From an uncultured delta proteobacterium (GTDB lineage: Bacteria > Desulfobacterota > Syntrophia > Syntrophales > Smithellaceae): DNA of 64,000 nt. Below are positions 22,060 through 34,124 of the stretch, one piece after another. The DNA is taken from the NCBI GenBank assembly GCA_903907985.1, contig CAIVQG010000043.1, forward strand, positions 1 through 64,000, in the 5' to 3' direction. How positions within the stretch are numbered: the stretch's first letter is position 1; every line of letters begins with the position of its first letter. A program made the position numbers and the translations under genes. Under the pieces are notes generated by a model, which was not told the origin of the DNA, did not search any database, and saw only the letters and a list, made by a program, of their open reading frames with translations.

Positions 22060-25000
22060 TTACTTCACCCCCTTCTTTGCAACATTGACCATGAAAGCTT
22101 TGCTTTCCGGGATCATGGTGTTAGCGTCACCAATGGTCGATGTTAAAATATTCGCCGCATCACCGAAGGTGTGTACTTCCGGCTTCTTGTCATTTGGTTC
22201 ATATTTCCTGTCGGCCGTCGTGATCCAGCCATAATGCCAGGGAATGCCAACCTCATGAATTGTGTTTCCATCAATGTTAAATGGTTTGAAACGGGGAGTG
22301 ACTATCGCCGTTGCTTCTACTTCGCCCCGTGCGGACTTAACTATGCACTTATCTCCGTTGACAATACCTCTTTCTTTGGCCAGTTCCTGGCTCATCTCTA
22401 CAAACATGCCCGGCTGCATTTCCGCCAGCCACGGACACCAACGGGTGAGAACACCGGTTTGCCAATGCTCGCTGACACGATAAGTTGTGCCGATGAAAGG
22501 GAAACGCGGATCACAAGTTGTCACGCCGGAATAAACATCCATATCGGAACCGACGCCGCTGGCGTCGAACCGTTTAATGACCGGATTGTTCTTCTGCGGC
22601 GACATGATATTCTTCTCCACAGGACACTCCATCGGTTCGTAGTGTTCGGAGAAAGGACCGTCGGCTAAGCCCGGACCATAGAGACTAGCCACACCGTCCG
22701 GTTTCATGATAAACGGCGGCCGACCGGAGCCGGGATTACCGACACCATCGGGAACATCACCGGTCCATTTTTCACCATCCCATTTGATAACCGCCCGTTT
22801 AGGATCCCAGGGGTTACCTTTAGGATCAACCGAAGCGCCATTGTAAATAATGCGGCGGTTAATCGGCCAGCACCATGCCCACTCGGAATGCAAACCGATG
22901 CCCGAGGTATCTTTGGAAATTCTGCGCATGGCGAGATTAGCTTTTTCATTAACGGAACCGCAGTAAACCCAGCAACCGGAAGAAGTGGAACCATCAGCCT
23001 GGAGCCAGGCGAAAGTCGGAACAAGGTCTCCCTTTTTAAATTCCTTGAACTCACCTTTTTTCGTCGGATTTTCCAGCTTCTTATCTTCCAGGAAATAGCC
23101 ATTAATCTCCTTGGCTACTGTGCGGGGTTCGTAATGGAATTCATGACCTACTTTTTTGCCATATGGCCAGGTAAGTTTCGTGATCGCTTCCTTCAGCGGA
23201 CCGCCCTGCTTGACGTAGAGATCCTGAATCTTGAAGTGAAGCTCGCTCATGATATCCCCATCCGGCTTGGATGAACCAACCGGATTGATGGCCTTATAGC
23301 GCCACTGCATTAAACGGCTGCTGTTGGCTATGCTGCCCTCCTTTTCGATAGAAGAAGCGGCGGGAAGCATAAAGACTTCCGTCTTGATTTTGGTGGGGTC
23401 CATTCCCGGACCGCGCCAGAAGGAGCCGGTTTCGTTGTCAAACAAGTTGACATTAACCATCCAGTCGAGTTTGGTCATGGCCTGGCGAGTTTTATTGGAA
23501 TGGGCACCGCTACAGGCCGGATTCATGCCCCAGGCAAAGAAGCCGGTGAACTTGCCTTTATACATCTGGTCGAAGATCGTCAGCCATGAATAATTCCCGC
23601 CGTCATCGAGTTTGGGCATAATTTGATAGGCATCATCAATGGTCAGATTTGTTCCGTACATGGAACGCAGGAAGCTGGCCGAATATTTGGGAGTATTTTT
23701 CCACCAGTTAAGGCTGTCTTTCTCCTTGGTTTTCGGAGTCCGCTTTTCATTAAAATCTTTAAGTGTCTTTAGTGATGCCGTAGGAGCACCCAGATAGCCG
23801 GGCCAGATATGGAACAAAAGCCCGTGATCAGTAGAACCCTGAACGTTGGATTCACCTCTCATGGCTGCGACTCCACCGCCGGCGATACCCATGTTGCCCA
23901 GAAGCAGCTGGATGATGCACATAGTCCGGATATTTTGCACACCTACAGTATGCTGCGTCCAGCCCATCGCGTAAAGCTCAACACCGGCTTTGTCCGGTTT
24001 TCCCGTGGAGCCGTAAATTTTGTAAACTTCCAGAAGTTTGTCTTCGGGTGTTCCGGTGATCCGCGAAACAAGTTTCGTATTATAACGGGAATAGTGTTTT
24101 TTCATCAGCTGGAAAACACAGTTGGGATCTTGCAATGTCTTGTCTTTTTTAATGACCCCTTCTGCGTCCGTCTGATACGACCAGGTGTCTTTTTCATACT
24201 TGCCGGACACCAATCCGGAAAACACACCGTTATTCTCTCCCGGCATTTTAAATGCCGGATTCACCAGGAAAGAAGCATTGGTGTAGCTGACAACATATTC
24301 ATGGTGAATCAGATTTTTATCCAGTATAAATTTGATCATACCGCCCAGGAAAGCGATATCGGTGCCTGATCGCAGGGGGGCATAGAGGTGAGCTTTAGCA
24401 GCCGATTGCGTGAACCGTGGGTCCACACAGATCAGTTTTGCGCCTCTCTTGTCGATAGCCTCCTGGATCCACTTGAAAGCAACAGGATGGTTGGAAGCCG
24501 GATTGCTTCCCATAATCAGAATTACGTCACTGTTTTTAAAATCATTCCAGTGGTTGGTCATTGCGCCGCGTCCGAACGACTCTGCCAGAGCCGGTACAGT
24601 TGGACTGTGTCAGATGCGGGCCTGATGTTCAATATAAACAAGGCCCAACCCCCTCAGGAATTTTTGGTACGTAAAGCATTCTTCCAGGTCCATCGCCGCG
24701 CTGCCGACAGAAGCAATACCCTCTGTACGATTGACGACTTCTCCTTTATCGTTGGTCTTCTTAAAGCTGATGTCTCTGCTTTTCTTCACGTTTTTAGCGA
24801 TTTTGTCCAGTGCCCATTCCCATTCAACTTCTTTCCACGCAGTAGCGAAAGGAGCGCGGTAAAGCGGTTTGCCCAGACGATTCTCGTTGACGGCCATCTG
24901 ATAGATCGAACCGCCCTTGCTGCACAGAGAACCTTTGTTGATGGGACTATCGGGATCCCCCTCGGTATTGATGACCTTGCCGTCGCGCACGGATACGATA

Positions 25001-25167
25001 ATACTGCATCCCACGGAACAATAAGGGCAAACGGTAGTGGTTTCTTTGGCGTACTTGATTTTCAAGGGCTGGGCGTGAGCGGCGATCGGTTTAAGGCTGA
25101 TGCCTAACCCGCTTGTTGCCACCACAGCTCCGGAAATCTTTAAGAAACCTCTTCTGGTGACGTTCAT
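22060..25167 (-). CDS. fdnG: Formate dehydrogenase alpha subunit, selenoprotein (periplasmic, Tat-exported)
   Basis: Catalytic molybdopterin subunit that oxidises formate to CO2 in the periplasm. A Tat leader (TRRGFLKISG) opens the 1035-codon frame, followed by a 4Fe-4S motif CPYCSVGC. At codon 186 an in-frame TGA (24610-24612) stands within IEHQARI-U-HSPTVPALAESFGRGAMTN. E. coli FdnG has selenocysteine at exactly this place, so it should be read as Sec and the 185- and 833-codon frames are one gene. A bSECIS-like stem-loop follows the TGA. The family's molybdopterin-dinucleotide-binding region ends the protein. Ribosome-binding site GGAGAAGG. First gene of fdnGHI. Confidence 0.95.
24579..24600 (-). 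promoter_or_regulatory. Candidate bacterial SECIS element of fdnG
   Basis: Directly after the TGA, minus-strand ACTGTACC and GGCAGAGT form an imperfect stem around a GGCTCT loop. The position and the GG-U-type loop resemble the E. coli fdnG SECIS. The stem has two mismatches, so it is weaker than the one in the second formate dehydrogenase. Confidence 0.5.
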
Positions 25168-25393: not shown

Positions 25394-25421
25394 CTACTTA
25401 TGTCATTTATGACATAAGTAG
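25394..25421. promoter_or_regulatory. Perfect 12-bp inverted repeat with ATGTCA/TGACAT half-sites
   Basis: CTACTTATGTCA at 25394-25405 is exactly inverted at 25410-25421 around TTTA. The half-site is shared with the palindrome at 33835-33846 ahead of the second formate dehydrogenase, so both operons may answer to the same regulator. Confidence 0.6.
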
Positions 25422-25560: not shown

Positions 25561-25589
25561 TTGACATACAAAATTGACAACTTTATAGT
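25561..25589 (+). promoter_or_regulatory. Near-consensus promoter of the Mo-storage-like operon
   Basis: TTGACA at 25561-25566, 17-nt spacer, TATAGT at 25584-25589. It lies 28 nt ahead of the ATG at 25618. The ATTTTACGGTCGT element ends 10 nt before the -35. Confidence 0.65.
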
Positions 25590-25617: not shown

Positions 25618-26349
25618 ATGCGAGTTTATATCGGTTTTGATGATACGGATGTTCTGGGATCGGATATGGGAACCGGAAAGCTGGCCCGACTATTTGAACA
25701 GTTCCTCCCTGCGGGATGTAAAATGTGGGGTGTTGTCCGGCAGCAGTTGCTTGTTGACCCGAGGATACCTTATACATCCCATAACAGTGCGGCCTGTGTG
25801 GTGATAGAATGTCATGATGTGTCTTTTGTCGAATCGTTGAAAAAAATAGCGATCACTCATCTGGAAACCATGTCTTCACCGGGAAGTGATCCCGGTATTT
25901 GTCTGGTTGGCGAAGGTCATCCGGCCCTGTCTGCGCTGGAGTCATTCGGACTCTTGTGCACGGCTAAAGTCGTATCCCAACACGACGCCAAGCAAGCGGT
26001 GGGTGCAGCCCATCTATCGGGTCACGGCGGTACAAACGACGGTATAATTGGAGCCGCCGCGGCAGTCGGCCTTACGGCATCGGGCTGGACCGGCCGCTTT
26101 ATCGAGTATGCAGGTCTGAGAACATTTCCTGCTCTGGTGGCCGTTTCAGCGTTAATGCAAAAAGGCATTCGTGTTGTTTCTCTGGATCGGGACGCCTGTT
26201 GCCCTTGTCCGGAAGATGTGGTGGATACAAAAGGTTGGCTCAGACCCAGGCTTTGGGGGCATGCCATTGTGCTTCCAGTAAAACCAGCAGGCGCTGGCCG
26301 CTGGGAAAGCCTGGGAAAAAAAAGAAACCCGAGCAAACAAAAGATTTAG
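25618..26349 (+). CDS. TiaS-like DDTD-motif protein of unknown role
   Basis: The 243-residue product starts MRVYIGFDDTDVLGSDMGTGKLAR. This matches the N-terminal kinase-like domain of archaeal TiaS (agmatine-tRNA-Ile2 ligase), with the IGxDDTD motif at residues 5-11. The OB and zinc-ribbon tRNA-binding domains of TiaS are absent, so tRNA modification is unlikely. A central GVGAAHLSGHGGTNDGIIGAAAAVGL-like glycine-rich segment could bind nucleotide. ATG 25618 is chosen over 25561 because AGGA lies upstream, the motif sits at the start as in the family, and the longer version would overlap the promoter. It heads an operon with a 75-residue protein and a Mo-storage-like protein, which suggests a metal or cofactor role. 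Confidence 0.7.
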   Translation: MRVYIGFDDTDVLGSDMGTGKLARLFEQFLPAGCKMWGVVRQQLLVDPRIPYTSHNSAACVVIECHDVSFVESLKKIAITHLETMSSPGSDPGICLVGEGHPALSALESFGLLCTAKVVSQHDAKQAVGAAHLSGHGGTNDGIIGAAAAVGLTASGWTGRFIEYAGLRTFPALVAVSALMQKGIRVVSLDRDACCPCPEDVVDTKGWLRPRLWGHAIVLPVKPAGAGRWESLGKKRNPSKQKI

Positions 26350-26361
26350 GGAGGTGTATTT

Positions 26362-26589
26362 ATGTCAGGGAAAATATTTTATCGCGAGCGGCATAAAGTG
26401 GGAACCAAAGAAAAGAAACCACGCTTCAAACTGGTGGCCGTTGCTAATGTGGGCATCACTTTTTATGCCGACCACCTGAGGAAAAAAGAGCTGGAAGAAA
26501 TTGCCGAATCTGTGGGGGCAGATCTGATCCTGCTCAAGGCTCCCAAAGATGGCAAAGTAAAGGAAGACGAGATTGTGGTTAAGGAATAA
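26362..26589 (+). CDS. Small conserved-looking protein in the Mo-storage operon
   Basis: A 75-residue protein I do not recognise. It is basic at the N-terminus (MSGKIFYRERHKVGTKEKKPRF). The middle has a beta-alpha pattern (KLVAVANVGITFYADHLRKKELEEIAESVG), with strand LILLKAP and an acidic tail. No cysteines or membrane segment. GGGAGG at 26349-26354 is a good ribosome-binding site. It lies 12 nt after the TiaS-like gene and 3 nt before the kinase-fold gene, so it is tightly cotranscribed and probably works with them. Confidence 0.7.
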   Translation: MSGKIFYRERHKVGTKEKKPRFKLVAVANVGITFYADHLRKKELEEIAESVGADLILLKAPKDGKVKEDEIVVKE

Positions 26590-26592
26590 GTT

Positions 26593-27423
26593 ATGGCGCT
26601 ATACAGAGAACGAGACGGACGAAGGCTGCATGTGAAAAGCAAACTCATGGGGGAGAGTTTAGTGGGCAAGACATTTATGGAAAGCCTTAAGATTGCTCCC
26701 CAGCAGCGGCTTTTTCCTGATGTTAATGTCGTTAAGATCGGAGGACAATCCATTTGCGATCGAGGCGTAAAGGCATTGCCGGCGATTTTAAAAGAAGTCG
26801 TGTCTAACAAGAAAAAGCACAAGATCATTCTGACGACGGGCGGCGGTACGCGCAGCCGACATATTTATTCCATAGGGCTGGAATTGGGTATGCCGACCGG
26901 CATAATCGCCAAATTCGGAAGTTCCGTCTCCGAACAGAACGCACTGCTGGTTTCGACACTCCTGGCCCCCTGGGGCGGCATTAAGATTGGCCATGACGAA
27001 ATCACGAAGCTATCAAATTACTTTGCCCAGGATTGTATTCCTGTGATGCACGGTATGCCGCCTTACGACTATTTTGCTCTACCCGTTACAAAGTCTCGCA
27101 TTCCCATTCATCGTACCGATGTGGGTACGCTGATCATCGCCAATTTAATCGGCGCCCGCAGCTGCATTTTCGTCAAGGACGAGAGGGGGCTTTATACGGA
27201 TGATCCGAAGAAAAACAGCAAGGCATCGTTTATACCTGAAATCAGCGTGAAAGATCTTCTGGCAAGGGAACTGGATGATCTGGTCATCGAACGGCCCTGT
27301 CTGGAAATCCTTCTCAACAGCGAGGTTCTCGATAAGATTCAGATCATTAACGGCCTGGCGAAGGGCAACCTTACAAAGGCCCTGAATGGAAAGCCTGTTG
27401 GCACAGTCATTTACAGGTCATAG
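26593..27423 (+). CDS. Amino-acid-kinase-fold protein, molybdenum storage protein (MosA/MosB)-like
   Basis: The 276 residues match the length and fold of the Azotobacter molybdenum-storage subunits, which use a UMP-kinase-like fold and ATP to build polyoxomolybdate clusters. Visible are the N-terminal KIGGQSICDRG strand-loop, the glycine-rich TTGGGTRSRH nucleotide loop, HRTDVGTLIIANLIGARSCIFVKDERGLYTDDPKK (the kinase-fold core) and C-terminal INGLAKGNLTKAL. MoSto is built of two related subunits, but only one is encoded here, so a homohexamer is likely. The surrounding mod, moe, mob and formate dehydrogenase genes support a Mo/W role over uridylate kinase. Stop codon TAG. Confidence 0.8.
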   Translation: MALYRERDGRRLHVKSKLMGESLVGKTFMESLKIAPQQRLFPDVNVVKIGGQSICDRGVKALPAILKEVVSNKKKHKIILTTGGGTRSRHIYSIGLELGMPTGIIAKFGSSVSEQNALLVSTLLAPWGGIKIGHDEITKLSNYFAQDCIPVMHGMPPYDYFALPVTKSRIPIHRTDVGTLIIANLIGARSCIFVKDERGLYTDDPKKNSKASFIPEISVKDLLARELDDLVIERPCLEILLNSEVLDKIQIINGLAKGNLTKALNGKPVGTVIYRS

Positions 27424-27479: not shown

Positions 27480-28244
27480 TTATAATATCAAATTCACAAA
27501 GTGCAGATAGGGCCGCAGGGCTGGAGTTCCTCCACCCTCCGAGATAATCTGGAACGCTCGCCCGGTATCGGCGACGCGAGCGCCGCCGAGGTGCGTGACC
27601 GGCGTATCTTGGAAAATTGCAGACTGTAGCGGTGTGGATGGTCCCAGAAGAACGACGGAGCGTGGCTTGCCCAGACAGTTAATAGTTTCCTCAAAGGTGC
27701 CATTTAAAAGTGTGGTGGCGGTGATGATCGCGACATTGCAATCCCGGAGCGCTCGTTGTTTTTCCGCCGCCGAGAGCAATTCCAGGCGTTGAGGATTTTT
27801 TTCGATCACCGTCAGGATGGCGCCGGTAGCCCGGATTCGTTCCGTAAGCGGTGCGAATAGTCCAACCATGGCTACTTTTTCGCCAGGCTGAAGGTTTAAA
27901 TAGCTGGTTGCTTCACGATCTTCCCTGCTGTCGGCAGAACACTTGATGAGGGCGTTGGCCGTAGCCAGGCCGATGGCCAGATGTAGGGAGTTTTTGCCGG
28001 CAATAAGACATTTCAGTAAATGGGACGCATCAGTACCGGCGCAGCGGCTTCTGTCCGGTAAAACGGTGCGGTCCCCGTGTGCAACGTCTGGCAGGATTGC
28101 GGCGATACCAGCCACATGATTATCCAGTTTCACCCCCACATAACTTAATCCTACGCACAGATCGGCAATCCGCCTTTTTTTTGCCGAGGATTCTGTTTTT
28201 TTGTAAAGGCGCTTCAGGGTATCGCCTAGTTTGAGCATTGCCAT
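27480..28244 (-). CDS. DUF4213/DUF364 family putative heavy-metal chelation protein
   Basis: A 254-residue protein of the DUF364 group, annotated as putative heavy-metal-chelating and often found beside Mo/W or metal-uptake genes. The N-terminal half includes RIADLCVGLSYVGVKL. The C-terminal DUF364 half has a Rossmann-like VAMVGLFAPL segment, a strand ILTVIEKNPQ and the typical NVAIITATTLLNGTFEETI and VVLLGPSTPL blocks. It is the last gene of the run fdhA-modABC-fmdE-DUF364, 6 nt after the FmdE gene. The function is not established; a part in Mo/W handling is inferred from the neighbours. Confidence 0.8.
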   Translation of the reverse strand: MAMLKLGDTLKRLYKKTESSAKKRRIADLCVGLSYVGVKLDNHVAGIAAILPDVAHGDRTVLPDRSRCAGTDASHLLKCLIAGKNSLHLAIGLATANALIKCSADSREDREATSYLNLQPGEKVAMVGLFAPLTERIRATGAILTVIEKNPQRLELLSAAEKQRALRDCNVAIITATTLLNGTFEETINCLGKPRSVVLLGPSTPLQSAIFQDTPVTHLGGARVADTGRAFQIISEGGGTPALRPYLHFVNLIL

Positions 28245-28250
28245 CGTGTT

Positions 28251-28859
28251 TTAACAACCGGCACATTTTTGTTTTGCTTCACTGAGGCGAACCACGTCCG
28301 TATAAGGAGTTTCGCCCTGACAGTTGCGGCAGGAATCGCCATCTTTCGAGGGATAAGCCTCGCCGCAAACCGGACAAATACCTGACGGACCCATTTTCTT
28401 GCGGCGAACTTTTTCCGGCTCGACTTGTACACGCTGGATGCCCAGCAGTCCGTGTCCTGCCTCCTTGATTTGCGCCAGGAGAAGATCAGGATCTTGTTCG
28501 CTCTTTTTTTTCTTTTTCAGATACCAGTCGCGCACTTCCGGCCAGGCATTCAGTTTTTCGGTGTCCAGATAAACCCGTACACCTTTGCCGGTGTATTTCT
28601 CATACAGGGTGACGGCAAACCGGCCGAAAGGAACAATGGAGAGCCAACCGTTGCCGATAGTGCAATGGGTTAAAATCTGAACAGCGTCGGGAAGACAAAC
28701 CGGCGTTTCGCAGATGGCATCAAAGAATTCCCCTTCCGGTAGATTTTTCATTGCCAGATCAACGATAAAACCGCCGATAATCAGTCCCGGCGCGAGATGG
28801 CCGTGAAAAGATTTGACCAGATGGAGATATTCTTCGTAGGAATAGGTACAGATGTTCAT
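28251..28859 (-). CDS. fmdE: FmdE-family protein with C-terminal zinc ribbon
   Basis: Matches the FmdE family, first named from the molybdenum formylmethanofuran dehydrogenase operon of methanogens. The 202 residues begin with the family block YLHLVKSFHGHLAPGLIIGG. A conserved Cys region ICETPVCLPDAVQILTHCTIGNG follows, and the protein ends with a Cys4 zinc ribbon (CPVCGEAY...CRNCQGE). Bacterial FmdE proteins occur beside molybdoenzyme or Mo-transport genes; their biochemical role is not known. Here it lies 23 nt after modC. A last Cys pair in QKCAGC could add metal ligands. Confidence 0.88.
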   Translation of the reverse strand: MNICTYSYEEYLHLVKSFHGHLAPGLIIGGFIVDLAMKNLPEGEFFDAICETPVCLPDAVQILTHCTIGNGWLSIVPFGRFAVTLYEKYTGKGVRVYLDTEKLNAWPEVRDWYLKKKKKSEQDPDLLLAQIKEAGHGLLGIQRVQVEPEKVRRKKMGPSGICPVCGEAYPSKDGDSCRNCQGETPYTDVVRLSEAKQKCAGC

Positions 28860-28882: not shown

Positions 28883-29596
28883 TTAGTATACCAGCGCCAA
28901 TCTTGGTTCGCGCGCCGCGCGGCTAGATCCTTCCGTTGCCGGTTCGCGGGTAATACTGCGCTGCAGCCATTGGTCGTCATTTTTACCGTCAACGACAGGC
29001 ATAATTTCATCAGCCAGAAATAGCGCCTCATTAATATCATGTGTCACATAAATAATGGGGCACGAAAGCGTGCCTTTCAGGTTCTTGAGTTCTTCGCGTA
29101 AGCCCCGGCGCGTGATCACATCGAGGGCGGAAAACGGTTCGTCCAGCAACAGCAGCCGGGGATGCCTGGCCAGCGCCTGGCAAAGCGCGCAGCGCTGACG
29201 CTCGCCGCCGGAAACCATGTGCGGCTTGCGTTTTCGCAAATGACTAATTTTGAACAGATCAAAGAGGTCATCGACTTCTTTTTTGTTTGCTGCGGCAAAC
29301 GCTGCGTTGTCATAGAGATTGAGATGAGGGAAAAGCGTGTAATCCTGAAACACATAACCCAAACGGCGTTTCTGCGGCGCAATATTAATGCGGTCCGCTG
29401 AATCAAACCAGACTTCATCGCCAAAGGTCACCCGCCCTTCATCCGGTGTTGTAAGGCCCGCCAGCATGCGGATGATGGTTGTTTTGCCGCCGCCGGAGGG
29501 GCCGATCATAACCATCATGCTTTCCGTCGCGCAGGTAAACGATATATCCAGATCAAAGTATTGCAATCTCTTCTTAAAAGAAGCGGAGATGGTCAT
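28883..29596 (-). CDS. modC: Molybdate/tungstate ABC transporter ATP-binding protein
   Basis: ATPase of the oxyanion importer. The 237 residues contain Walker A GPSGGGKTT, the Q-loop YVFQDYTLFPHL, signature VSGGERQRCALCQALA, Walker B LLLLDEPFSALD and the switch His in VTHDINEAL. The C-terminal TOBE/Mop oxyanion-sensing domain of full-length ModC (about 350 residues) is missing, so trans-inhibition by molybdate should not occur. It overlaps modB by 4 nt. An alternative is a tungstate-selective Wtp/Tup-like system, which sequence alone does not exclude. Confidence 0.9.
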   Translation of the reverse strand: MTISASFKKRLQYFDLDISFTCATESMMVMIGPSGGGKTTIIRMLAGLTTPDEGRVTFGDEVWFDSADRINIAPQKRRLGYVFQDYTLFPHLNLYDNAAFAAANKKEVDDLFDLFKISHLRKRKPHMVSGGERQRCALCQALARHPRLLLLDEPFSALDVITRRGLREELKNLKGTLSCPIIYVTHDINEALFLADEIMPVVDGKNDDQWLQRSITREPATEGSSRAAREPRLALVY

Positions 29597-30252
29597 GTGC
29601 GGGAGTCCTCGTTGAGTTTATTAATCAATAATAAAAAGGCGTAACTGACTGGAATGAAGCTGAGCGCGATCATGCCTGCGGCCGAATAATTCATGGTTTC
29701 CACTGCTTCGTAGATGGCGATGGAGGCAACCTTGGTTTCTCCCGGAATACTCCCGCCGACCATCAAGAGAACTCCGAACGCCCCGATACTGTGCAGAAAA
29801 ACTAAAACAGCGGCGGCGGCAATCCCGCTTACAGAGTTGGGAATGATCACCCGAAAAAATGCCGTCCGCTTGGACAGACCGAGAATATAGGCAGCATCCA
29901 GGAGGCGTTGGTCGATTTTCTGGAATGCCGCCTTCATCGGCTGGACAGCAAAGGGAATAGAGTAAATAATCGAAGCGATAGTGATTCCCAGGAAGGTGAA
30001 GAGCAGAGATCCTCCGGTGATGGTTTCCCAGGCCTGTCCGGCAAATCCTTTCGGCCCCATTACCACCAGCAGATAAAAACCGATGGCCGTCGGCGGCAGC
30101 GCCATCGGCAAATAGATCAATGCCTCCATCAGCGACTTTCCCGGGAAACGGGTGTAGGCCAGCAGATAAGCGATGGGGGCAGCGATCAACATCAGAAAGA
30201 TCGTTGTAAACGAAGCGAGTTTTAATGTGACGTAAAGCGCGAGATAATCCAT
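29593..30252 (-). CDS. modB: Molybdate/tungstate ABC transporter permease
   Basis: Inner-membrane permease, 219 residues with about five to six helices. The EAA-like coupling loop is RLLDAAYILGLSKRTAFFRVIIPNSVSGI. The start ATG abuts the modA stop (TAAATG), and the 3' end overlaps modC by 4 nt, so modABC is tightly coupled. Assigned as ModB by operon context and loop sequence. Confidence 0.92.
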   Translation of the reverse strand: MDYLALYVTLKLASFTTIFLMLIAAPIAYLLAYTRFPGKSLMEALIYLPMALPPTAIGFYLLVVMGPKGFAGQAWETITGGSLLFTFLGITIASIIYSIPFAVQPMKAAFQKIDQRLLDAAYILGLSKRTAFFRVIIPNSVSGIAAAAVLVFLHSIGAFGVLLMVGGSIPGETKVASIAIYEAVETMNYSAAGMIALSFIPVSYAFLLLINKLNEDSRT

Positions 30253-31014
30253 TTAACGGTATCCAAATTTTGTTTTAATCTTTTGGGTCTCCGGCGAACT
30301 TAAAAATGCCGCGAACTGTTCCACTAATGTGCGGTTTTTTGTCCTTTTCAAAATACAGGCCGCTTGAACAATATCCGGGGCTTGTGCAAGCAGATAGAAG
30401 CAACCGCTCTTTCCTTCAGAGCTGGCCGTGACCGACAGTGAACAGAAACCGGCGTCAACCGCCGATGTGCTCGCATATTGAAAAGACTGAGCAATGTCCT
30501 GGGCGTTGACCAATTTGCTTTGCAGAGCATCCGCCAATCCGGATTTTTGCAGTGCCTCTTTAGCAGCGGTTCCGTAAGGGGCGGTCAGAGGATTGGCTAT
30601 CGCAATCTTTTTGATCCGGTTGTTTTTCAAAGCGTCCTGCCAGGTTGCTGCTTTGCAGAAATCCTTATTGGCCGACCAAAGAATCACCTTTCCCCGGGCG
30701 TAAATGAAAGTTCCTTCTGTCAATCCCTCTTTTTGTAGAAGAGCAGGCCTTTGTTCATCGGCGGAAAGAAACAGGTCATAAGGGGCGCCGTTTTTTATCT
30801 GGCTGTATAGATTGCCAGCGGAAGAAAAAGTACCCTCGATTTTTACTCCCGTTTTTTTCTCAAAGTCAGCCGCAATTTCCTGGAAAGCGGAAATAAAGTT
30901 TGCCGCTACCGCCACGGAAATTTTTTCCTTGGCCAAGGCGGAAAAGGGACTCAGCAGGGTGATCAGAATAAGCGCAATAACAATCCGGCAATTATTCATA
31001 GTTACTACTTTCAT
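30253..31014 (-). CDS. modA: Molybdate-binding periplasmic protein
   Basis: Solute-binding protein of the importer. A signal peptide (MNNCRIVIALILITLLSPFSALA) leads into the ModA opening EKISVAVAANF, FEKKTGVKIEGTFSSAGNLYSQIKNGAPYDLFLSADE and KIAIANPLTAPYGTAAKEAL, all typical of class II oxyanion-binding proteins. 253 residues, normal. AGGAATAC lies 7-9 nt before ATG 31014. It follows fdhA by 84 nt across a strong terminator hairpin, so it may need readthrough or its own promoter. Confidence 0.93.
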   Translation of the reverse strand: MKVVTMNNCRIVIALILITLLSPFSALAKEKISVAVAANFISAFQEIAADFEKKTGVKIEGTFSSAGNLYSQIKNGAPYDLFLSADEQRPALLQKEGLTEGTFIYARGKVILWSANKDFCKAATWQDALKNNRIKKIAIANPLTAPYGTAAKEALQKSGLADALQSKLVNAQDIAQSFQYASTSAVDAGFCSLSVTASSEGKSGCFYLLAQAPDIVQAACILKRTKNRTLVEQFAAFLSSPETQKIKTKFGYR

Positions 31015-31097: not shown

Positions 31098-33800
31098 CTA
31101 TTTAAGTTTATCAATCCTTACGGCGCAAGCTTTGTATTCCGCTGTCTGGGTAATCGGGTCATAGACCGGATTGGTGAGCCAATTGGCGCAGGCTTCCCGG
31201 AAATGGAAGGCCATCCAGACCAGTCCCTGCGGAACCTGCGAGGTTACACGAGCCTTGACTGTGACCTCACCGCGCCGCGATTTTACGGAAATCATCTCTC
31301 CGTCGGCAATGCCCTTGGACTCGGCATCTGCTGCGGAGATATCGGCTGTTTCTTCACTTAGTAATTCATTAATACCCTGGCAACGTCCCGTCTGTGTCCG
31401 AGTGTGGTAATGGTACAGACGTCTTCCGGTGGAGAGCACCATTGGATATTCTTGATCGGGAACTTCCGCCGGTGGTATCCAGTCGATGGGTTTGAGCACG
31501 CCCAAGCCGCAGGTAAAACAACCATCCTTATGCAGCGTAGCGGTGCCGGGATGATCTTCGCTGGGAGCCGGCCACTGGATTCCGTCATTTTCCAGTCGGG
31601 CATATTTTATTCCGGCCAGCGCCGGAGCGAGCACCGATACTTCGTTATCCCATATTTCCTCGGCACTATCCGATTTCCATTTGTGTCCCATTCTCTTGGC
31701 TATTTCTTTGAATATCCACCAGTTGGGCTTGGCCTCGCCCGGTGGTTGACTAACCGTGCGCACGCGGTTGACGCGCCTCTCCGAACTGGTAAAGGTGCCG
31801 TCATTCTCACTCCAGGCTGCCGCCGGCAGTATTACATGCGCAAAACGCGTTGTTTCTGTAGGGAATATATCCTGACAGACCAAAAATTCCGCCGATTCCA
31901 GGCAATGTTCAACATGATGAATATCCGGCTCGGTGTTGGCCAGGTTCTCACCGAAGACATAAAATGCTTTAATTTTTCCGGTGGTCAAACCTTCCATCAT
32001 CGTGGGCATCATCATGCCGGGCTTATTGGGAAGAGATTTAACTTTCCATGCCTTCATAAATTTCTCTTGAGCCTGCGGGTTATCGACCTTTTGATAGCCG
32101 GGAAAGACATTAGGCAGCGCGCCCATATCGCAAGCGCCTTGAACGTTGTTCTGGCCGCGCAGCGGATTGACGCCGCCGCACTCAAAACCAACATTGCCCA
32201 AAAGCATCTGGAGATTGGCGCAGGACATAACGTTGTTTACGCCACAAATATGTTCGGTGATACCCAGGGTGTACATCAGCATTGCCGGTTTGACTGCGGC
32301 CAGCCTCCGGGCAAGATTACGAATCGTATCGGCGGAAACGCCGCTTATTTCGGCAGCGCGTTCGGGCGGATACTCCAACACCTTCTTTTTGAGCTCATCA
32401 AACCCCATCGTGCAGGAGTCAACATAATCTTTGTCGTAAAGATTTTCGCTAATGAGTACATTCATGACACCATTGATCAGAGCCACATCGGAGCCGACTT
32501 GAATTTGCACATGAAGCTGAGCGAAATCCACCAGATCCGTACGCCTAGGATCGACAACGATCAACTGGGCGCCGCCAACGGCTGCGTCTTTCACAAATGT
32601 TGCAGCAACCGGATGCGCTTCGGTCATATTGGAACCGATGACCAAGATCATCTTGGCCTTCATAAAATCAGCAAAAGAATTGGTCATTGCACCGGACCCG
32701 AATGAAGTCGCGAGACCCGCGACAGTGGGAGCGTGTCAGGTACGGGCGCAGTGATCGATGTTGTTTGTTCCGATCGCCGCGCGGAAAAGTTTCTGCATTT
32801 GATACGAATCTTCGTTGATGCTGCGGGCGCAGCTGACACCGGCAATGGCGTCCGGGCCGTCTTTTTTAATAATCTCTTTGAATTTTTTGGCGACCAGATT
32901 GAGGGCTTCATCCCAGGAGGCCTCGCGGAACTCTCCATTGGTTTCCCGAATCAGCGGTGTTTTAAGCCTTTCTGCGGAATAAATAAAGTCGTAGGCGAAA
33001 CGGCCTTTCACGCACAAACGGCCCTGATTGGGATGGGCGTCTTCGACGGCGGTGATTTTGGCAATTTTGCCGTCATGGACATGCAACCACTGTTGGCAAC
33101 CCACGCCGCAGTAGGGGCAGGTGGTGCGGATTTTCTTCGTTTCCCAGGGGCGGCCCAGGCCTTTGGCTTTCTTCTCCGTGAGCGCACCAACCGGGCATAC
33201 TTCCACGCACTGGCCGCAGAAAACGCATTCGCTTTCATCGTAGGGTCTATCGCCGCCGGTGACAATTTTGCTTTTTGCACCGCGATAGCCCTGGGAAATT
33301 GCCCGATTGACAACCAAGTCATTACAGGCCTGTACACAACGTCCGCAGAGAATGCAACGACTGAAATCGCGGACGATAAAGGGATTTTGATCCTCCGTCG
33401 GATAAATATCCTTTTCATCCTTTTCTTTAAATCGCAGTTGAGTAATTTTATAGAAATAGGCCAGATCTTGCAGGCGGCAATTGCCGTTGGCTTCGCACAT
33501 CAGGCAGTTATGCCTGCCGCTCGCCAGCAGTAACTCGACGTTCATTTTTCTGGCACGATGGACAAGATCGGTATCGGTGAACACTTCCATTCCCGGCGAT
33601 ACCGGTGTGGAACAGGCCGCCATCAGTGATCGCGCGCCTTTAACCTCGACGAGGCAGATCCGGCAGGAACCGGTGGGCGAAGCACCCTTCAGATAGCACA
33701 GAGTAGGAATTTCAATCCCGCCATTGCGTGCCGCATCCAGAATCATTTGTCCCGGTTTAAATCCGGTCTCTTTCGAGTTTAGAATAAATGTGTCGTTCAT
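31098..33800 (-). CDS. fdhA: Formate dehydrogenase alpha subunit with NuoG-like N-terminus, selenoprotein
   Basis: Cytoplasmic-type formate dehydrogenase catalytic subunit (no signal peptide), 900 residues. The N-terminus has a 2Fe-2S domain (CYLKGASPTGSCRICLVEV...MAAC), a His-Cys FeS site HNCLMCEANGNC, two ferredoxin sets (CILCGRCVQAC and CVFCGQCVEVCP) and the CPYCGVGC cluster of the molybdopterin domain. Codon 355 is an in-frame TGA (32736-32738) in [27 protein letters not shown], the exact Sec site of the family. A near-ideal SECIS hairpin follows. The NuoE/NuoF-like or HydB/C partners such enzymes usually have are absent nearby. Ribosome-binding site AGGAGAA. Confidence 0.95.
32707..32723 (-). 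promoter_or_regulatory. Bacterial SECIS hairpin of fdhA
   Basis: On the minus strand GTCGCG and CGCGAC form a perfect 6-bp stem closed by a GGTCT loop, starting 12 nt after the TGA. The E. coli fdhF SECIS has the same GGUCU loop and a similar distance (11 nt), which supports SelB binding and Sec insertion. Confidence 0.9.
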
Positions 33801-34124
33801 GCTCAGTTCTCCTATAAATCATTTCTGACAATAATGACATATGTCAAATGTGGCATACGCAATGATCGTTTTCATACAAAACTATTGTCTTTATGTCAAC
33901 GCACAAAGGTCTTAATTCGTGTAATTTGCATAAAACCTTCCGATATCTATGTCAAATTTGGTCTATGTCAACTGCAGCATAAAAGACCGAAAGTCACAAA
34001 AAAGTAAATATGTTACATAAAGCACAGTCATAAAAAAGATTTGGCTGACAATTAATTTTATTGACATTTTATGGTCATCGCCCTTATAAGAAAAATGACC
34101 AGGGCAGAGGAGTGGTCGTAAGCT
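33801..34124. promoter_or_regulatory. Divergent control region between fdhA and the ModE-like gene
   Basis: No gene is seen. It carries a perfect palindrome TGACATATGTCA (33835-33846), a TTATGTCAA site near 33891 and a direct repeat TCTATGTCAA at 33946-33955 and 33962-33971. A promoter with TTGACA lies at 34061-34090. Overlapping it, ATTTTATGGTCAT (34066-34078) nearly repeats the element at 25538. At least six ATGTCA/TGACAT half-sites in this gap are unusual and suggest multiple regulator contacts. Confidence 0.65.
34061..34090 (+). promoter_or_regulatory. Probable promoter of the ModE-like gene
   Basis: TTGACA (34061-34066) and TATAAG (34085-34090) with an 18-nt spacer, about 35 nt before the ATG. 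The spacer contains the TGACATTTTATGGTCA imperfect inverted repeat, which fits autoregulation. Confidence 0.55.

Follow-up and report, generated by a model that had tools for sequence, protein, structure and literature searches.

The window analysed here is a 64,000-nucleotide stretch of DNA from an uncultured member of the Smithellaceae (contig CAIVQG010000043.1), and it contains a compact operon of three genes encoding a TiaS-type kinase-domain protein (the TiaS-like protein), a small basic protein that we call p75, and Mos, a single-gene homologue of the molybdenum storage proteins (Table 1). The three open reading frames are those proposed in the initial annotation, all on the plus strand, with gaps of 12 nt between the TiaS-like and p75 genes and 3 nt between p75 and Mos.

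Table 1. Features of the operon and its flanks, in window coordinates.
Feature	Position	Strand	Basis or remark
Second formate dehydrogenase alpha subunit, in-frame TGA = selenocysteine 186	22060..25167	-	divergent from operon
28-nt operator-like palindrome CTACTTATGTCAT-TT-ATGACATAAGTAG	25394..25421	.	between divergent formate dehydrogenase and operon
Sigma-70-like promoter TTGACA-17-TATAGT	25561..25589	+	consensus match only
TiaS-type kinase-domain protein, 243 aa	25618..26349	+	ORF, profile, PDB and model matches
p75, basic 75-aa protein, no named family	26362..26589	+	ORF
Mos, single-gene molybdenum-storage-protein homologue, 276 aa, amino-acid-kinase fold	26593..27423	+	MosB similarity
DUF4213-DUF364 protein	27480..28244	-	convergent with operon
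FmdE-family protein	28251..28859	-	convergent side of operon
ModC, ModB, ModA molybdate/tungstate ABC transporter	28883..31014	-	ModB from position and similarity to relatives
Formate dehydrogenase alpha subunit (FdhA), in-frame TGA = selenocysteine 355	31098..33800	-	
ModE-like HTH_1 regulator, 113 aa	34125..34466	+	

The operon and its surroundings

The minus-strand genes facing the operon encode DUF364, FmdE, ModC, ModB, ModA and FdhA, so the list of convergent genes in the initial annotation (fdhA-modABC-fmdE-DUF364) was correct. The other flank, which was missing from it, carries a second, divergent formate dehydrogenase. Both formate dehydrogenases in the window have one in-frame TGA, which lies within the U-H-(S/A)-P-T-V motif of selenocysteine enzymes; plain ORF lists break both alpha subunits at this codon. 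The promoter upstream of the operon had been described as near-consensus and agrees with the consensus at 11 of 12 positions, although it is the best of seven promoter-like sites in a region where 3.4 are expected by chance. An Rfam scan around the operon gave no match.

The palindrome in Table 1 is the sole zero-mismatch match in the window's genome. Its core, TTATGTCA-N4-TGACATAA, occupies the same place in four related loci (L078, L083, L102 and L110), and among the relatives it is found roughly 20-250 nt upstream of fdhA, modA and other molybdenum or tungsten (Mo/W) genes. Further sites occur at 33823-33842 of the window and at L078:4314, L083:11741 and L079:12084. The palindrome cannot be assigned to the operon alone because it lies at a similar distance from the formate dehydrogenase start. 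Common to formate dehydrogenase, modA and related Mo/W promoters, it is a candidate regulon operator, and the ModE-like HTH_1 regulator is a possible reader of the site between the formate dehydrogenase and the operon.

Sequence and predicted structure of the three proteins

Mos was described from the start as resembling MosA and MosB, and sequence searches agree: it matches MosB over its full length (E 2.9e-64), followed by MosA (3.5e-43), with the best UMP kinase at 2.9e-6. Lys48 and Lys195 of Mos correspond to Lys42 and Lys189 of MosB, its ATP-site lysines, and both are kept in all 46 single-gene proteins, whereas MosA has Glu or Val at the position equivalent to Lys189. In the cavity, Mos has Gly133/His134 and Asp159 where MosA has Glu129/His130 and His156, other His, Asp and Lys residues being conserved; Glu129 and His156 are presumably oxide-cluster ligands of the alpha subunit. 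In MoSto, the Azotobacter molybdenum storage protein, octamolybdate is bound covalently via His and Glu (PMC6294228). With these cavity residues differing, the oxide-cluster chemistry of Mos need not be that of MosA.

Mos shares its fold with UMP and isopentenyl-phosphate kinases of the amino-acid-kinase family and weakly matches UMP kinase models, which is what would be seen if it were an ordinary enzyme of that kind in an incidental Mo/W setting. Both model matches, however, fall under their cut-offs (TIGR02076, 49.9 against 158.05; TIGR02075, 31.3 against 243.9) and stand against the full-length match to MosB, and the separate weak matches in relatives are likely to be true UMP kinases. This identity was rejected on the scores and we find it scarcely credible.

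The 75-residue protein had been reported as unrecognised, and it matched no family in Pfam or NCBIfam and no PDB entry. A predicted model of moderate quality (pLDDT 65), with the order beta-beta-alpha-beta, resembled no known fold in structure searches (Foldseek best E 0.21; VIA best Z 3.8). Across an alignment of 64 sequences Ile5, Arg8, Arg10, Pro20 and His38 are invariant, and residues 1-25 of the window copy include nine Lys/Arg and two Glu.

The top curated NCBIfam match of the TiaS-like protein is TiaS (E 3.8e-9; 35.6 bits against a cut-off of 600), in an alignment that stops at model position 169 of 422. Residues 1-165 align with TiaS in the PDB (E 3e-5), where D8, D9, T10 and D11 pair with identical residues and T19 pairs with Thr18, a residue with a role in TiaS autophosphorylation. 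These four residues form the DDTD ATP/Mg motif; all 70 TiaS-like proteins compared share them and T19 without exception, and 10 of the 70 match Pfam TiaS_TCKD. The predicted model (pLDDT 93) matches TiaS at Z 20.8 with an rmsd of 1.9 A over 146 residues, the next, unrelated folds reaching Z 7. Similarity to TiaS ends between residues 165 and 219 of the 243, and the part after about residue 165 is a segment of its own in place of the OB fold and zinc ribbon; the tRNA-binding part is missing, as had been claimed. An apparent TiaS-Mos fusion in L102, a draft genome, seems to stem from an in-frame deletion and was discarded, and the 470-aa frames of L239, L240 and L245 hold a normal-sized match within a long open frame and were left out as evidence of fusion.

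The retained TiaS fold and kinase residues, and the rank of TiaS among NCBIfam matches, would also suit a tRNA-modifying enzyme acting on tRNA-Ile2 or another RNA and sharing the operon by chance. We consider this very unlikely. The window's genome has tilS (164.8 bits against a cut-off of 93.6), so that AUA decoding is covered; the parts with which TiaS binds tRNA are absent; and the context of TiaS-like genes tracks Mo/W transport genes in several phyla. As a main explanation, tRNA modification was dismissed on the presence of tilS and the absence of the tRNA-binding domains.

Distribution and genomic context among relatives

A scan of named genomes yielded 271 TiaS-like relatives, 80 of which were kept (from Syntrophales, other Desulfobacterota, Synergistota and Actinomycetota). 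Both p75 and Mos lie near the TiaS-like gene at 57 of these 80 loci, in Desulfobacterota and Synergistota, and the commonest gene order is TiaS-p75-Mos in one operon; the close relatives L078, L083 and L110 have a layout near-identical to that of the window. Rather than being found mostly apart, the outcome that the initial annotation named as counting against a common unit, the three genes co-occur and are usually adjacent. Mos is present as one copy in the window's genome and as a single gene in 22 of the 26 Mos-bearing genomes in a sample of 395 genomes across the phylum. Among those 22 single-Mos genomes p75 is found in 22 and the TiaS-like gene in 21, compared with 2 and 9, respectively, of the other 373. 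The four genomes of this sample with a two-gene, mosAB-type system have neither, and neither is annotated beside the mosB-mosA pair of Azospirillum. In a second sample, of 155 genomes across the order, Mos occurs in 41, accompanied by p75 in 39 and by the TiaS-like gene in 40; the two Mos genomes without p75 have broken or truncated copies.

The sequence distances of the TiaS-like protein, p75 and Mos correlate with each other above 2000 permutations (r = 0.41-0.70), values that a shared species tree alone could produce. The correlation is strongest for p75 and Mos (0.70), and this pair is the tightest link of the unit. The association of the three genes is beyond chance.

In the Mos tree the single-gene proteins form one well-supported clan (99/93) apart from the two-gene pairs, in a topology where some deep joins on long branches are uncertain. 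Within the clan, type I is same-strand with proteins of 276 aa, and type II is convergent with proteins of about 285 aa. A gene for a PadR regulator is found next to and opposite p75 at the type II loci. Duplicated p75 genes are seen in L148, L149, L159 and L160, the last of which has two Mos genes of different type, with one p75 for each. At L283:6039-12509 (G418), TonB, TiaS-like, PadR and p75 genes accompany an ECF cassette, and no Mos was found in the genome.

The neighbouring PadR gene raises another reading of p75, in which it would bind RNA or DNA and regulate the operon instead of taking part in storage, and the small, basic protein with its Lys/Arg-rich N-terminal half would fit such a role. 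We think it unlikely, as neither the model nor the family searches gave an HTH or a known nucleic-acid-binding fold, there is often a distinct regulator of PadR or ModE type, and L160 keeps a p75 of its own for each Mos copy.

Of 38 long loci, 20 have specific Mo/W markers (transport, formate dehydrogenase and cofactor genes) nearby, compared with 1 of 40 random windows (Fisher 2.5e-7, a value that overstates independence since the genomes and loci are related, as do the other P values), and 18 of the 38 have none of the markers used. Mo/W genes are thus found near homologues, the second point on which the initial proposal was open to refutation. The transporters vary by locus and include ModABC, WtpABC (WtpA above cut-off) and TupABC.

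Neither p75 nor Mos accompanies the TiaS-like gene at 20 of the 80 loci. Nine of these are cassettes of a TonB-dependent receptor and an ECF transporter, and others have TupABC, mobA and moeA. The TonB/ECF cassettes, with fused ATPases, a T component and an unnamed S component, were seen with TiaS-like genes at L170:5789-11324, L158, L282, L279, L101, L103 and L104, and are candidate Mo/W importers. A divergent TiaS-like subfamily sometimes replaces the TiaS-like gene and lies beside a Peripla_BP_2 (BtuF/MolA-like) ABC transporter (L242:1441-3331 and L288:6466-8281); in L288 it also adjoins Mos, p75, PadR and a moeA-like gene.

Of the 30 phylum-sample genomes that bear the TiaS-like gene, 9 lack Mos, and at those 20 loci it has neither p75 nor Mos beside it, so it is not strictly a storage part. 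The locus may join two modules, one of the TiaS-like gene with transporters and one of p75 with Mos, in which the TiaS-like protein would be a general enzyme acting after import on Mo/W, or on a metal chelate or cofactor precursor, and storage by p75 and Mos would be one of several fates. The Mos-free loci beside TonB/ECF transporters or TupABC-mobA-moeA point this way, as do the divergent subfamily next to a BtuF-type binding protein, the close covariation of p75 with Mos, and L168, where TupABC-p75-Mos stands apart from the TiaS-like gene. Yet nearly every single-Mos genome has a TiaS-like gene somewhere, and a single operon of all three is the commonest arrangement. We take this reading seriously while holding it to be less likely than not.

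A putative molybdenum and tungsten storage module

The initial annotation proposed that the three proteins could together store, release or modify Mo/W or its cofactor. As a Mo/W module the three genes stand, on their co-occurrence, adjacency, marker neighbourhoods and covarying distances. We infer the storing, releasing or modifying itself, and with it the metal content and oligomeric state of Mos, the function of p75 and the substrate and reaction of the TiaS-like protein. A one-subunit, MoSto-like storage of Mo/W with p75 and a TiaS-like enzyme is, in our judgement, the likely joint explanation, and the operon would serve as a storage-and-supply module for the surrounding selenocysteine formate dehydrogenases.

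Given its homology to MoSto, Mos most plausibly acts as an ATP-dependent cage for storing oxyanions, which would most likely be built of one subunit type, a homo-oligomer replacing the alpha-beta hexamer of Azotobacter, and would load molybdate or tungstate as oxide clusters using ATP. Since p75 is present with the single-gene Mos and absent where there are two subunits, it probably supplies the second subunit's share, for example polyanion contacts or gating. With its strongly cationic N-terminal hairpin, p75 would be an obligate partner of Mos whose probable task is to bind the polyanion or to act as cap and gate of the cage. The TiaS-like protein would be an ATP-dependent phosphotransfer enzyme of the same metal path, most likely placed between import and storage or release. 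Its kinase core is kept and it follows unrelated Mo/W transporters, so that it probably acts on the oxyanion once imported, on a carrier, or on the storage complex; it would phosphorylate the oxyanion or carrier, or switch p75 and Mos. More speculatively, a TiaS-type kinase domain may have been recruited to metal-oxyanion metabolism, activating molybdate, tungstate or a carrier with ATP after import by unrelated transporters and, with p75, handing it to a homomeric cage. Such an activation, if real, would add a new step to the biochemistry that leads from metal uptake to cofactor insertion.

The open-access literature searched gave no description of a TiaS-like/p75/Mos unit, nor of TiaS with molybdenum, TunR with tungstate, or a TonB/ECF system with molybdate or tungstate. 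If syntrophs, sulfate reducers and Synergistota do have a one-subunit relative of MoSto that depends on a small partner, metal-oxide storage would be a broader strategy among formate dehydrogenase-dependent organisms, including those central to methanogenic consortia. The single-gene Mos could also offer a simpler system for protein-built oxide clusters, the TiaS-like protein becomes a candidate for catalysing a so far unrecognised step of Mo/W handling, and an unnamed TonB/ECF transporter type is marked as a candidate Mo/W importer.

Archaeal TiaS, the tRNA-Ile2 agmatidine synthetase (kinase domain PF22641), is like the TiaS-like protein in fold over about 146 residues, in the DDTD motif, the Thr18 equivalent and the GxIGA loop. 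The protein described here differs in having its own C-terminal segment instead of the OB fold and zinc ribbon, and in being bacterial, encoded in a tilS-bearing genome and linked to Mo/W genes. Methanogenesis marker protein 11 (TIGR03280), a methanogen family of unknown function, shows weak similarity to 47 of the 70 TiaS-like proteins, apparently through the same kinase-type domain, although they score far under its cut-off (15.7 bits against 255.8 for the window's protein). The MoSto of Azotobacter vinelandii (MosA/MosB) resembles Mos in full-length homology, strongest for MosB, and in the amino-acid-kinase fold, the ATP-site lysines of MosB and the Mo/W gene context. In contrast to its mosA-mosB pair, with two paralogous subunits in an alpha-beta hexamer, there is one gene here, with p75 and TiaS-like companions that are absent from the two-gene loci examined, different residues in the cluster pocket and a clan of its own in the tree. 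The Tub tungsten storage protein of Eubacterium limosum has likewise been proposed to store oxyanion for formate dehydrogenase and similar enzymes, but it belongs to the TOBE-domain proteins, is not related to Mos, and binds tungstate as single anions (PMC11980592). The unit would work like MoSto storage and is not the canonical two-subunit MoSto; it is a variant with two partners.
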